Position numbers and translations under genes: made by a program
The notes under the pieces: generated by a model
Databases searched by the model: none
What the model was told of the DNA's origin: nothing
What the model saw: the letters and a program-made list of their open reading frames with translations, nothing else
Part shown: positions 12,809 through 17,229 of the stretch, piece after piece
Layout: each line of letters opens with the position of its first letter
Numbering within the stretch: the stretch's first letter is position 1
DNA from: Thecaphora thlaspeos
Taxonomy: Eukaryota; Basidiomycota; Ustilaginomycetes; Urocystidales; Glomosporiaceae
DNA length: 64,000 nt
Reading direction: 5' to 3'
Assembly (NCBI GenBank): GCA_900291925.1
Contig: UWYS01000001.1
Span: forward strand, 248,001-312,000

Positions 12809-15800
12809 ATGTCACCATCAGCCGTCTCCGCGGCGGCGCACTCGGTCGTCGACGGGATCAAGGATGCGCTCCAGAAGACCGAACCTCGACACGCCCCGGG
12901 AGCCGATGCCGGCCACGTCCCGCTCATCGATCTCTACTCTGGCAGCGCCGACAGTTCCTCGTCAGAGTCGGCCAAGGACAAGCTCAAGGAAGAGATCATC
13001 GTTGGCCTAAAGGGCCAGGACCGCACCGTGATCCCCGGCAGGGAGTCCGACCCCGAGGACCGCAGCTTCGCCTATAAGCGGACCCTGCCCACCGTCATCC
13101 TCTATGACGAGCAGGGCCTCATCCTCTACGACAAGCTCACTGCCGCACCCGAGTACTATCTCTTCAATGCTGAGCTCGAGATCCTCTGCGAATTTGGCCC
13201 AGAGATCGCTCGGCGCATCTTTGGCTACACCACGCTCGCGCCGACCGTGGATACCTCGCGCGCCGTCCAGCCTGGCGCCGACCAGGCGCCGCAAAAGGAG
13301 CGCAAGGACGAGCAGCGCCGCGACGGAGGACGCACGCCGCCGGCTTCGGGGCTCAGCGACGTCAGTAAGGAAAAGTGGGGCGACCAGAGCGTCGGCAAGT
13401 TCAACGGCGGCGTCAATGCCGAAGAGGGGCTCGACGGCGAGCGCTCGGTTGGAGCCGGCTCCCTGGTCGAGCTCGGCGCAGGCTCGCTCCGCAAGACGAT
13501 TCACCTCATTCGAGCGCTGGAACGGCTCCCCGCAGCCGCTGCAGGAGACCCCAGCGTCAATTACTACGCCCTCGACCTCGACAGGGCCGAGCTCACTCGG
13601 ACCCTGGAGGAACTTAGGGGCAAGGAGGCTCGTCGCAGCGACGGAAACGGCTGGACCGTCCTCGGCGGCAAGGTGGCCCTCCACGGCATGTGGGCTGACT
13701 ACGACGCAGGCCTCGACTTTATCGGCCGCGGCGGCCTCTCGAAGGGTTCAGCGGACGGCGACCGTGAGGGTCCGCGCTGCCTAATGTGGCTGGGCTCGAG
13801 CATTGGCAACTTTGACCGCAAGTCGGCCGCCGAGTTCCTGACTAAGACGGCGAAGAGCGTCATGCGCCCGCAGGACACGATGCTTATCTCGATCGACCGC
13901 CGCAACAAGCCGGCCGACGTCGCGCTCGCCTACAACGACCCCGCTGGCCTGACGCGCGACTTTATCATGAATGGCCTCGACCATGCCGACCGCGTCCTCG
14001 GAGGCGGCGTGCTTGACAGGTCCAAGTTCGAGTACCACGACCGCTACAATAGCCGCGAGGGTCGCCACGAGTCCTACTACCGCTCAAAGGTGGACCAGAC
14101 CATCTCGGTTCCGGGGCATGAGGACAAGCCGATTGAGATCGCCGTGGGCGAGCTGATCCACATGGAGAGCAGCTACAAGTACAGCGAGCGCGAGGCGCTC
14201 GACCTTTTCGACATCGCCGGACTCCGAGTCGTTCAGAAGTGGACCGACCGCTCCGAACGCTACGACGTCTGGCTTGTGGAGAAGCCGCAGTTCCACTTTT
14301 CCAGCAGCGGCGGGGCGCGGGCAGGTGCAATCTCCGTCGACAACAACGACGTCGACGGCGAGTCCCACGAGGTCAGCATATACGAAGGCAGAGGCAACAG
14401 CGGCATGGGCCTACCCAGTCCAAGGGAGTGGACGACTATGTGGAAGGCCTGGGACACGGTCACGCTGAGCATGATTCCGCCCAGCATGCTGCACGAGAAG
14501 CCGATCGACCTCCGCCACATCTGCCTCTTCTACCTCGGGCACATCCCTGCGTTCCTCGACATCCATGTGTCCAAGTACCTCGACCAGCCTCACACCGGCG
14601 ACCACTACTCGTCGATCTTTGAGCGTGGCATCAACCCGCACATGGACGACTTGAAGCAGTGTAATCCGCACAGCGAGGTGCCCACCCGTCCCGAAGACTG
14701 GCCAACGCTCGGCGAGATTCTCGACTATAAGACCCGGGTGACGAAGCGCGTCCAGAAGATCTACGACGACGTTGCAGCCGGCAGCCTCGAGATGAACCGC
14801 AGGCTGGCCAGGATGCTGTGGATGACGTTCGAGCACATCGCCCTCCACCTCGAAACGCTCCTCTACATGCTGAGCCAGAGCTCCAGCACGCTGCCCCCAG
14901 CTGGGTTCACCAGGCCGGACTGGGTCACGCTGAGGCGAAGTTGGGATGCAGACCACAAGCGTTGCGGCGGCGACCGAGCTCTGGAGCAGCGGATCAGGTT
15001 CGAGGCCGGCTCCATCGTGCTCGGCCACGATGACGACGACAGCAAGGACTTTGACATAAAAGCTGCCTGTCCGACGTCGGACATCGCCGACCTCAACGCC
15101 CAGCTTGGCAATCCTGAGTTCGGATGGGACAATGAGCATCCGCGCCGGAAAGTAGAGACGGGCGCATTCAGCATCTCTGCTCTGCCCATCACCAACGGCC
15201 AGTTTGTCGAGTTCCTCTCGGCCGCCGAGAGCACCGACGTCCCCGCTTCGTGGGTCGAGGTGGCCGGGATGCCGGGTCGCCACCACGTCCGGACCTTTTA
15301 CGGTCCTGTCGAGATGGACGTCGCCAAGCACTGGCCTGTTCAAGCCTCAGGCGCGCAGCTAGCCGCCTTTGCAAAGTGGAAGGGCGGCAGGCTGCCTACG
15401 CAACCCGAGCTGCGCAGGTTCCTCGACGCGCCGCCCGAGGCGCTGGTGCTCGACCTGTCGGTGCCGCCATTCCTCGCCGATGGCGAAGATGACGATGACG
15501 CTGCCATGTCCGCCGCCGCACACGACGTCAACCCGCCTGGGAAGCAGCCGCCTCCAGCTCGCGGCTCTGCGGCCAAGTACGTCCCGAAAGAGGAGCAGTT
15601 GGAGAAGGACCTTCGCTGGATGAAGGAGGCGCTCGTCATGGCGCAGGAGGCGGCTGACGCTGGCGAGGTCCCCGTCGGCGGTGTCTTTGTCCGCAATGGC
15701 GAGATCATCGCCAAGGGCCGCAACCGCACCAACGAGCTGATGAATGCCACCCGTCACGCCGAGCTTGAGGCCATTGACTACATCCTGTCAATCCTCCCGC

Positions 15801-16660
15801 CAAAGGGCGAGGACTTCCCCCTCGATCCGCACTCGTGCCTGCCGGGAGACAATCCGTTCAAGGAGACGACCCTGTACGTCACCATCGAGCCGTGTATTAT
15901 GTGCGGCGCGGCGCTCCGTCAGGTCGGCATCAAGCGGGTCGTGTTCGGAGCGGGCAACGAGCGCTTCGGCGGCAACGGAAGCGTGATTGGCCTCCACGAC
16001 GACGACGCGCTCGTCAGCTCGCCCGGCTACGAGTCGGTAGGCGGCTACTACCGCGACGAGGCGATCATGATGCTGCGCCGCTTCTATATCACCGAAAACA
16101 CCAACGCGCCCAAGCCCCAGAGCAAGGCCCGCCGCGTGCTCAAGACCGAGATCCAGCCGCCGGGCATCTCGATGCATGGGCCCGGCATTGCAGCGACCAC
16201 GACGTCGACGCAGCAGCAGGACGACGGCCAGAGCGCGGTCGAAGGAGAAAGCGCCGCCACCGCCACTGCCCAGCGTGCCAACACCCGTCGAGGCTCGCAG
16301 AACCTAACGCAGCCTCAAGCCGCTCCGTGCTCCAACGTGGGCTTCCGTAACTGGCACCCGGTCCCCGCCTCGCTGCCACGCTACGACTCGGACGGCACGC
16401 TGCTTCCCGGTCACAACGGCGGCGTGTGGGAGTGGACCAGAACGCCCTTCATGGCGTACGACGGCTTCCGACCGGCGGCTCTCTACCCTGGCTACAGCTC
16501 CGATTTCTTTGACGGCAAGCACAGCGTTGTCCTCGGCGGCAGCTGGGCCACATTGCCGTCGGTGGCCGGACGACGATCCGTCGTCAACACATATCAGACG
16601 GCCTACCCATACATCTTTGGAGGCGCTCGGGTCGTCTACGATGAGGACACGACTGCGTAG
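12809..16660 (+). CDS. EGT1: Ergothioneine synthase Egt1 with an embedded Tad2-type tRNA adenosine deaminase
   Basis: One uninterrupted frame of 1283 residues. Residues about 30-490 form the EgtD-like histidine trimethyltransferase (AAPEYYLFNAELEIL, SAM loop VELGAGSLRKT, MWLGSSIGNFD). Residues about 525-700 form the EgtB DinB-like part, with the iron ligands of an HX3HXE motif at His676, His680 and Glu682. The FGE-sulfatase fold starts near residue 790 (ISALPITNGQFVEFL), runs through GRLPTQPELRRFLD near 880, and resumes at Asn1176 (NVGFRNWHPVPASL) through GGVWEWT to the C-terminus. Between the halves, about 931-1120, lies a full Tad2/ADAT2 deaminase: His983-Ala984-Glu985, PCIMC with Cys1029 and Cys1032, and GNERFGGNGSV. 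Ergothioneine synthesis uses histidine, SAM, O2 and cysteine in the cytosol; Tad2 with Tad3 makes inosine-34 in tRNA. No stop, start or obvious splice pair separates the domains. The usual Egt1 is about 850-900 residues, so the excess fits the insert. Confidence 0.92.
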   Translation: MSPSAVSAAAHSVVDGIKDALQKTEPRHAPGADAGHVPLIDLYSGSADSSSSESAKDKLKEEIIVGLKGQDRTVIPGRESDPEDRSFAYKRTLPTVILYDEQGLILYDKLTAAPEYYLFNAELEILCEFGPEIARRIFGYTTLAPTVDTSRAVQPGADQAPQKERKDEQRRDGGRTPPASGLSDVSKEKWGDQSVGKFNGGVNAEEGLDGERSVGAGSLVELGAGSLRKTIHLIRALERLPAAAAGDPSVNYYALDLDRAELTRTLEELRGKEARRSDGNGWTVLGGKVALHGMWADYDAGLDFIGRGGLSKGSADGDREGPRCLMWLGSSIGNFDRKSAAEFLTKTAKSVMRPQDTMLISIDRRNKPADVALAYNDPAGLTRDFIMNGLDHADRVLGGGVLDRSKFEYHDRYNSREGRHESYYRSKVDQTISVPGHEDKPIEIAVGELIHMESSYKYSEREALDLFDIAGLRVVQKWTDRSERYDVWLVEKPQFHFSSSGGARAGAISVDNNDVDGESHEVSIYEGRGNSGMGLPSPREWTTMWKAWDTVTLSMIPPSMLHEKPIDLRHICLFYLGHIPAFLDIHVSKYLDQPHTGDHYSSIFERGINPHMDDLKQCNPHSEVPTRPEDWPTLGEILDYKTRVTKRVQKIYDDVAAGSLEMNRRLARMLWMTFEHIALHLETLLYMLSQSSSTLPPAGFTRPDWVTLRRSWDADHKRCGGDRALEQRIRFEAGSIVLGHDDDDSKDFDIKAACPTSDIADLNAQLGNPEFGWDNEHPRRKVETGAFSISALPITNGQFVEFLSAAESTDVPASWVEVAGMPGRHHVRTFYGPVEMDVAKHWPVQASGAQLAAFAKWKGGRLPTQPELRRFLDAPPEALVLDLSVPPFLADGEDDDDAAMSAAAHDVNPPGKQPPPARGSAAKYVPKEEQLEKDLRWMKEALVMAQEAADAGEVPVGGVFVRNGEIIAKGRNRTNELMNATRHAELEAIDYILSILPPKGEDFPLDPHSCLPGDNPFKETTLYVTIEPCIMCGAALRQVGIKRVVFGAGNERFGGNGSVIGLHDDDALVSSPGYESVGGYYRDEAIMMLRRFYITENTNAPKPQSKARRVLKTEIQPPGISMHGPGIAATTTSTQQQDDGQSAVEGESAATATAQRANTRRGSQNLTQPQAAPCSNVGFRNWHPVPASLPRYDSDGTLLPGHNGGVWEWTRTPFMAYDGFRPAALYPGYSSDFFDGKHSVVLGGSWATLPSVAGRRSVVNTYQTAYPYIFGGARVVYDEDTTA
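15590..16170 (+). other. Tad2/ADAT2 deaminase domain inside Egt1
   Basis: This sub-region encodes a zinc-dependent cytidine deaminase-like fold of the tRNA-A34 deaminase type. It begins near RWMKEALVMAQEA, contains GEVPVGGVFV, HAE (catalytic Glu985 and zinc ligand His983), EPCIMCGAALRQVGIKRVVFG (other zinc ligands Cys1029 and Cys1032), GNERFGGNGSV, and the C-terminal YYRDEAIMMLRRFYITEN...APKPQSK segment typical of fungal Tad2. All catalytic residues are present, so activity is plausible. It starts about 45 residues after the first half of the FGE domain ends and is followed by a linker of about 55 low-complexity residues (Thr/Gln/Ala-rich). An internal ATG at RWM could start a separate product, but no stop codon ends the domain. 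Confidence 0.9.
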
Positions 16661-17229
16661 CCGCGCCGACCGGGCCGCGTTCGTCAACCTCGGGACCTTC
16701 TTTTCATGTCATGCAATGCTGGACCGTAACCTCTGTCTCTTTTGCCTTCGCCTCTAGGATGCGTATCGCTCTGCATAACGCTCTTGACGGCTTCGCCTGC
16801 CTCACCGGCCCCCGCTTGGGCAGAGAGCAGGCTTGTATCTTTGTTGCACCATGTCTTATGAATAATGTACCTTTCATCTCTCCTGCCACGCCTTCTATAG
16901 CAACTTCGAAGCAATCCGTAGCCACGCTATGCAACTCGAAGCAGTCCGCCCACAGGCTCGCATCAGGCTCGGAAGTCTCCGTCTTGCCCCACGGGCGCCC
17001 CTATCTCGTTGCCGTTCGCCTGCCGTTCTTCGGCGCTGGGCCGGTACGGCGTGCGGGGATCCCTGTCAAGCTCAAGTCGCTTTGCTGTTCTGCCCGCAAT
17101 CATCCTATTCTGTATGCCCTCCACTTTGTTCGTAGCTGCCTGAGCGGCGGTCGCTCTCCGGCCAATGGGGCCCCGCAGCATGACCAGGCGCCCATCGGAA
17201 AAAGGCGGACAGGAGTGTGTGCGTCACCA
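16661..17229. other. 3' flank of EGT1-TAD2 up to CpG-depleted island 1
   Basis: CpG-containing sequence without a recognisable gene; it probably holds the 3' untranslated region. The composition changes abruptly near 17230-17400. Confidence 0.5.

Follow-up and report, generated by a model that had tools for sequence, protein, structure and literature searches.

Can Tad2, a tRNA deaminase that is usually a small separate protein, be carried inside Egt1, an unrelated enzyme that synthesizes the antioxidant ergothioneine? The question is raised by a gene in a 64,000-nucleotide stretch of the Thecaphora thlaspeos genome (positions 248,001 to 312,000 of contig UWYS01000001.1, assembly GCA_900291925.1, forward strand; hereafter the window). 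A preliminary description of the window had read this gene as a single open frame holding the Egt1 parts together with Tad2, and that frame was recovered exactly. Its 1283 amino acids (aa) are arranged in the order EgtD-like methyltransferase, EgtB-like half, first half of a fold like that of formylglycine-generating enzyme (FGE), whole Tad2/ADAT2, and second FGE-like half. As an observation, the nesting of Tad2 inside Egt1 is confirmed.

Architecture of the Egt1–Tad2 protein

The features of the gene, in window coordinates and with the evidence for each, are as follows.

12809..16660 (+): Egt1 with nested Tad2, single open frame, 1283 aa plus stop
13076..13219 (+): EgtD-like methyltransferase, N-terminal stretch (PF10017 positions 13-60, contig C1:261076-261219; PEYY motif)
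13448..14281 (+): EgtD-like methyltransferase, main stretch, aa 214-491 (Methyltransf_33, E 3e-74; EgtD structures; motifs)
14417..15088 (+): EgtB N-terminal (DinB-like) part (iron-site motifs; modelled fold)
14537-14554 (+): EgtB iron-site motif GHIPAF (H578)
14834-14854 (+): EgtB iron-site motif HxxxHxE (H676, H680, E682)
15104..15430 (+): FGE-like fold, first half, aa 766-874, ending in ELRRFLDA (FGE-sulfatase Pfam best stretch 766-868; alignment)
~15431-16333 (+): insert as a whole (alignment borders, conservation)
15431..15547 (+): N-tether, aa 875-913 (PPEALVLDL.VPPF conserved, then variable; pLDDT <50 at aa 884-919)
15548..16186 (+): complete Tad2/ADAT2, aa 914-1126, N-tail PPPARGSAAKYVP, C-tail VLKTEIQPPGISMHG (Pfam, alignment, PDB matches, fold)
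15746..15778 (+): deaminase motif ATRHAELEAID (16 of 16 fused proteins)
15884..15907 (+): zinc motif IEPCIMCG, PCxxC (16 of 16 fused proteins)
16187..16333 (+): C-tether, aa 1127-1175 (variable, then RRGSQNxTQxQAAP or RRxSxNPTQxQAAP at its end; pLDDT <50 at aa 1112-1171)
16334..16657 (+): FGE-like fold, second half, aa 1176-1283, starting NVGFRNWHP and containing NGGVWEW (NCBIfam, alignment, fold)

Four Pfam families are recognized in the window protein: Methyltransf_33, FGE-sulfatase (in two stretches), MafB19-deam and dCMP_cyt_deam_1. The two deaminase families overlap, and both are placed between the FGE-sulfatase stretches (dCMP_cyt_deam_1 at aa 932-1047, E 1.9e-21). NCBIfam gives OvoA/EgtB-type matches on either side of the insert, TadA in the middle (1019-1068) and the C-terminal half of an EgtB/SenA model at about 1190-1275, with scores that are mostly below the curated cut-offs and above its own cut-off for an EasF-type methyltransferase. 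PDB sequence matches follow one another along the protein as EgtD, ADAT2/TAD2 (930-1118) and EgtB-IV (about 1175-1276). The FGE-like domain is complete once both halves are taken together. The protein is not assigned to formylglycine-generating enzyme itself, the sulfatase activator, which has this fold in common, since as a whole it is Egt1-like.

The borders of the insert were placed by an alignment of the window protein and 32 relatives, 15 of them fused and 17 unfused. In unfused Egt1s, ELRRFLDA leads through a short loop to NVGFRNWHP, and the same flanks are found in all 16 fused proteins with the insert between them. Between fixed motifs, the flank-to-flank segment measures 278-300 aa in 15 fused proteins versus 13-29 aa in 76 of 105 unfused ones (the length pattern missed the remaining 29 of these listed matches), and because segment lengths vary among relatives the Egt1 loop is naturally length-variable. 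The insert is slightly wider than the 15450-16350 given before, with Tad2 proper at ~15548-16186.

Stand-alone Tad2s of Exobasidiomycetes have N-tails such as PPPVRGSAAKYVP and end near VLKTEVQPPGVSMHG. Both ancestral tails are present in the insert, which is therefore Tad2 from end to end and not a domain fragment. The best PDB sequence matches of the embedded deaminase are ADAT2/TAD2, its fold is that of ADAT2, and it groups with fungal Tad2 in the tree described below. HAE and PCxxC, previously reported as intact, are so in all 16 fused proteins, as is the basic Tad2 C-tail, and the nested Tad2 probably deaminates A34 of tRNA.

Fourteen sequences were compared for identity (the incomplete models P0012 and P0013 were dropped). 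No large region is better conserved than the Tad2 core, whose mean pairwise identity is 0.89 versus 0.79 for EgtD and 0.75 for the DinB part; the FGE halves have 0.74 and 0.85, and the variable tether parts 0.36 and 0.49. The conserved N-end of the insert has 0.86 (lowest pair 0.46) and the conserved C-end 0.90, eight FGE residues counted in. A basic kinase-type motif, RRx[ST], is seen in the C-tether at 16286-16297; it occurs in 14 of the 16 proteins and is missing in P0014 and P0015.

The Egt1 parts are likewise well preserved. The methyltransferase part aligns with EgtD structures and has the EgtD motifs PEYY, LGSSIGNF, AYND and HMESSYK, and we presume that the catalytic residue roles assigned to them apply; three of the motifs are each absent once among the 16 fused proteins, in P0012 and P0013. 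Both EgtB iron-site motifs are kept in all 16 and are invariant in a nine-row alignment that includes unfused Egt1s; the Pfam DinB model gives no reported match in the window protein, although these motifs are present.

AlphaFold2 modelled the Egt1 and Tad2 folds confidently, as structure alignment bears out, and both tethers are predicted to be disordered. With Foldseek alone, the insert kept the EgtB matches at a poor rmsd (5-14); VIA realignment, which only re-ranks structures already found by Foldseek, resolved them. Pfam, alignment and fold modelling agree on a complete Tad2 between the two halves of Egt1's FGE-like fold.

Within 15431-16333 there is no stop in the gene's frame versus 7 and 5 in the other two forward frames. 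A chance open stretch was rejected on these stops and on the presence of the nesting in 15 further protein clusters, and an assembly error was set aside because those clusters share the architecture.

A further insert lies in the methyltransferase part at 13229-13447 (about aa 141-213), with a conserved motif EKWGDxxVGxxNGGVNxEEGxDG that is also seen in unfused Exobasidiomycete Egt1s.

Distribution, origin and the partner subunit

A homologue search with residues 760-1283 scored 7989 candidates, with 454 at E 1e-10, of which the best 120 were listed. As to how far the architecture extends, 15 protein clusters among these 120 have deaminase families, with Tad2 in the same loop; the other 105 are Egt1 without Tad2, and HAE..PCxxC occurs in none of them. 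Named carriers among the matches listed are Pseudozyma flocculosa, Thecaphora frezii, Testicularia cyperi, P. hubeiensis, Kalmanozyma brasiliensis, Sporisorium graminicola, Ustilago trichophora, U. nuda and Violaceomyces palustris. They belong to the orders Ustilaginales, Urocystidales and Violaceomycetales, all in class Ustilaginomycetes (NCBI taxonomy, checked for four).

A search with Tad2 only gave 2195 matches, of which the best 120 (about 124-395 aa) were listed. Stand-alone Tad2 among these is found in sister classes, in Exobasidiomycetes (such as Microstroma, Sympodiomycopsis, Tilletia and Ceraceosorus) and Malassezia, and in other Basidiomycota; no Ustilaginomycete is named among these 120 stand-alone-length matches, two of which are fragments that belong to fused genes. 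In a tree of 50 rows a single branch separates the 16 fused Tad2s, which lie inside Ustilaginomycotina, from all other rows, and the simplest reading would be a single origin through capture of a native Tad2.

Six of the 120 listed stand-alone models (P0137, P0144, P0155, P0167, P0206, P0215) have extra residues exactly at N^ATRHAE, and two more start just before this site; the extra residues are apparently an intron read through. The embedded window Tad2 is contiguous here (AATGCCACC). Its intronless state may reflect either a processed copy put into Egt1 or insertion followed by intron loss, and we hold the two to be equal alternatives. The retrocopied Tad2 suggested earlier thus fits as an origin, with intron-like extra residues in stand-alone models that the window copy lacks, but intron loss explains the same pattern equally well.

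Is the embedded copy the only Tad2? In the 20.59-Mb assembly (32 contigs), a Tad2 query at E up to 10 matched this locus alone, which answers the possibility of a second TAD2 raised in the preliminary description. PF00383 matches six places: this locus, Tad3 (L005) and four other deaminase-like proteins, and a PF14437 profile search of the assembly added none. We take the protein at L001 to be dCMP-deaminase-like and that at L003 to be cytidine-deaminase-like; the protein at L006 matches Inv-AAD, and that at L004:982-1992 (minus strand, contig C6) has 337 aa with a deoxycytidylate-deaminase-like domain (best PDB match E 6e-10) and is separate from L001. PF10017 and PF03781 each match this locus alone in the same assembly, and therefore no second Egt1 was found. 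At the level of sequence, the architecture, its conservation, the intact motifs and the single Tad2 match in the assembly are established.

The partner subunit, Tad3, is encoded with a preceding SET domain (Set7-like, E 8.9e-12) in one 718-aa frame at L005:1270-3423 (minus strand, contig C13). Its deaminase domain, with HAI in the place of Tad2's HAE and with EPCVYC kept, has matches to TAD3/ADAT3 chains at E 7e-8 to 2e-7 and to the T. brucei chain 8aw3_3, also a deaminase, at 5e-11. Loss of HAE, for example to HAI, is expected of Tad3, the inactive ADAT subunit. Fusarium Tad3 is also described, in the accessible part of PMC11087585, as being without the catalytic Glu of HAE, usually with valine there. 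Pfam labels for SET and deaminase occur together in 73 of the 96 relatives of SET-Tad3 found at E 1e-10; the fusion is thus common among Basidiomycota and predates the nesting of Tad2. Several Ustilaginales SET-Tad3 proteins have no Pfam deaminase label, with the EPCxxC motif still there. Both wobble-deaminase subunits are fused to other, unrelated enzymes in this genome, and the nested Tad2 probably pairs with the SET-Tad3 protein.

tRNA genes that need the wobble deaminase are present in the genome: 39 nuclear predictions include Ala-AGC (2), Leu-AAG (3) and Thr-AGT (1), and no G34 tRNA for Ala, Leu or Thr occurs in this set, which is partial because 63 of 333 candidates were scored. The tRNA matches examined were 52 of 58, the other six being on contig C31, which is presumed to be mitochondrial. 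Three calls, one each of 'Arg gcg', 'Tyr ata' and 'Stop', seem to reflect introns put in the wrong place. ARAGORN found no tRNA in the window.

One polypeptide or two products

We regard it as probable that the gene encodes a real bifunctional enzyme, one polypeptide with Egt1 and Tad2 activities that is the genome's sole Tad2 and arose by a single capture with loss of the old gene. Its EgtD part would convert histidine to hercynine, its EgtB part would convert hercynine and cysteine to the sulfoxide, and the nested Tad2 would carry out wobble A34-to-I34 deamination. A complete intronless Tad2 frame would have entered the short, length-variable Egt1 loop once, no later than in the ancestor shared by Ustilaginales, Urocystidales and Violaceomycetales, with loss of the stand-alone gene to follow; this single origin and loss are what the sequence comparisons suggest. 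The folds and tethers are predicted, and since Tad2 would hang on two flexible tethers outside the EgtB core we propose that both folds form independently, leaving Tad2 to pair with the separately encoded SET-Tad3 protein for tRNA editing. Both parts are probably active within one and the same intact chain.

All sixteen tested basidiomycete yeasts make ergothioneine, including U. maydis UM521, P. hubeiensis KM59 and Anthracocystis flocculosa (PMC10858013, accessible part), these being strains different from those whose proteins were compared here. Going by these related producers, EgtB with the insert would appear to work, which as such does not imply an intact chain.

Several observations weigh against the bifunctional enzyme. 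The relatives' frames are taken from predicted proteins, and one fused record, P0013, is labelled as the plant Cichorium endivia, presumably through contamination. Support for the branch of the fused group is moderate (85/84; 84% of 200 bootstrap trees), and the deeper branching order of Ustilaginomycotina is not resolved in the tree. The completeness of the assembly is not stated. The model has a pTM of 0.68, and the relative placement of the domains is not predicted. By a codon score trained on the gene outside 15431-16333, the N-tether has 0.19 sense versus 0.20 antisense, and the C-tether is weak at -0.06, though best of the three forward frames; the Tad2 part scores 0.31.

A further proposal, which we hold to be rather doubtful, is that the nesting is itself functional, so that a class of fungi has a single obligatory enzyme linking the synthesis of a redox buffer with the capacity for decoding, with signals from a tether or the EgtB core setting Tad2-Tad3 assembly. 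With the sole Tad2 running through the EgtB catalytic domain, Egt1 could then be neither lost nor misfolded without loss of wobble inosine, and phosphorylation of the RRx[ST] site, or the iron or substrate state of the EgtB core, could set the assembly. A regulatory tie between the activities is conceivable in view of RRx[ST] in most C-tethers and of Fusarium, where an N-terminal extension of Tad2 weakens Tad3 binding (PMC11087585, accessible part).

The bifunctional enzyme has three rivals. Proteolysis would cut the tethers and free Tad2 while the two Egt1 pieces stay together. The predicted disorder of both tethers and the basic RRx[ST] motif that 14 of the 16 C-tethers carry are in keeping with this, but no known processing site was identified, the outer tether ends are more conserved than simple cutting needs, and a cut would break the EgtB chain within the FGE-like domain; we think it unlikely.

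Still less likely are two mRNAs, one in which splicing removes the Tad2 region as an open intron and leaves plain Egt1, the other retaining it to give Tad2. The genome does have introns (in the cytidine-deaminase-like gene at L003, stops break the frame upstream of the matched exon), and a CTAAC..CAG stretch lies at 16304-16312. Donor-like sites in 15390-15620 are found at 15457 and 15577, and the sole branch-plus-acceptor in 16100-16345 ends at 16312; by arithmetic from these positions, either pairing leaves the frame shifted (2 mod 3), in a scan by strict consensus patterns that odd sites could escape. Residues right at the insert borders are conserved between species, and splicing would also take out the loop that plain Egt1s have. 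Free Tad2 from an internal start was rejected as unlikely because no in-frame stop follows Tad2 before 16658, so that the product would keep the second FGE half; the Met at 15506 is not common to most relatives, and any Met in the N-tether is found in 3 of 16. The early polyadenylation signals AATAAA, ATTAAA, AATGAA and TATAAA are absent from 15401-16700, a test that says little because they are equally absent from the 800 bases after the gene.

That the embedded Tad2 is a non-working relic, with inosine made by another enzyme or an unassembled gene, is very improbable: assembly completeness not being given leaves it some room, but HAE, PCxxC and the basic C-tail persist in all 16 proteins, the Tad2 core is so highly conserved, and the stand-alone-length matches listed name no Ustilaginomycete and include two fused-gene pieces.

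Known systems and prior record

The fungal Egt1s of N. crassa (Egt-1) and S. pombe (Egt1/mug158) are alike in EgtD-EgtB order, HxxxHxE and an FGE-like C-terminal domain (PMC4020840, accessible part), but have no deaminase, whereas here the ELR..D-to-NVGF loop is replaced by ~280-300 aa with Tad2. The Tad2/ADAT2 proteins of human (3dh1), mouse (7nz7-9) and yeast (7bv5) are stand-alone, whereas here both ends are joined into another enzyme. Stand-alone Tad2s of Exobasidiomycetes and Malassezia share the N-tail PPPVRGSxAxYVP and the C-tail VLKTExQPPGVSMH and have ~65-80% identity to the window Tad2 among the matches listed, but are encoded by separate genes, several of whose models seem to include an intron at N^ATRHAE, which the window copy lacks. 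In SET-Tad3 of Basidiomycota the second ADAT subunit is likewise joined to an unrelated partner enzyme; this is, however, an end-to-end fusion, older and more widespread, and not nested.

The insert itself had been noticed before. In U. maydis, UM00197 was reported in 2014 to have long non-homologous inserts of unknown function in its methyltransferase and FGE domains (PMC4020840). UM00197 is not named among the matches listed here; it is very probably the orthologue of the window protein, and the methyltransferase insert at 13229-13447 is probably the other insert noted then. The accessible part of that report gives the FGE-domain insert without identification. The preliminary description's remark that it knew of no described case holds for the nesting, of which a literature search, with subscription papers and preprints mostly outside its reach, found no account; it does not hold for the insert, and two fused proteins already have the database name 'related to TAD2'. 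Gene fusion is common; a metabolic enzyme that holds within it the only detected copy of an essential tRNA enzyme is, as far as searched, undescribed.

Tad2 with Tad3 is essential for viability (PMC11087585, accessible part). The only detected Tad2 lies inside the catalytic domain of a secondary-metabolite enzyme and is kept over three orders, as if a mobile frame had captured an essential function and locked in a dispensable pathway. Removal of egt1 in these fungi is predicted to be lethal for a reason other than ergothioneine, which bears on the ergothioneine engineering proposed in Ustilago and Pseudozyma (PMC11993508, accessible part).

TAD2-type names also occur on Egt1 proteins without a deaminase, P0043 (Armillaria, 'related to TAD2') and P0028, apparently copied from fused orthologues; the spread of the name to P0043 is a caution for annotators. 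A Naganishia Egt1 model of 1522 aa (P0092) has a choline-kinase-type family (PF01633) within its methyltransferase part, which may be a second case of domain nesting or an error in the gene model.

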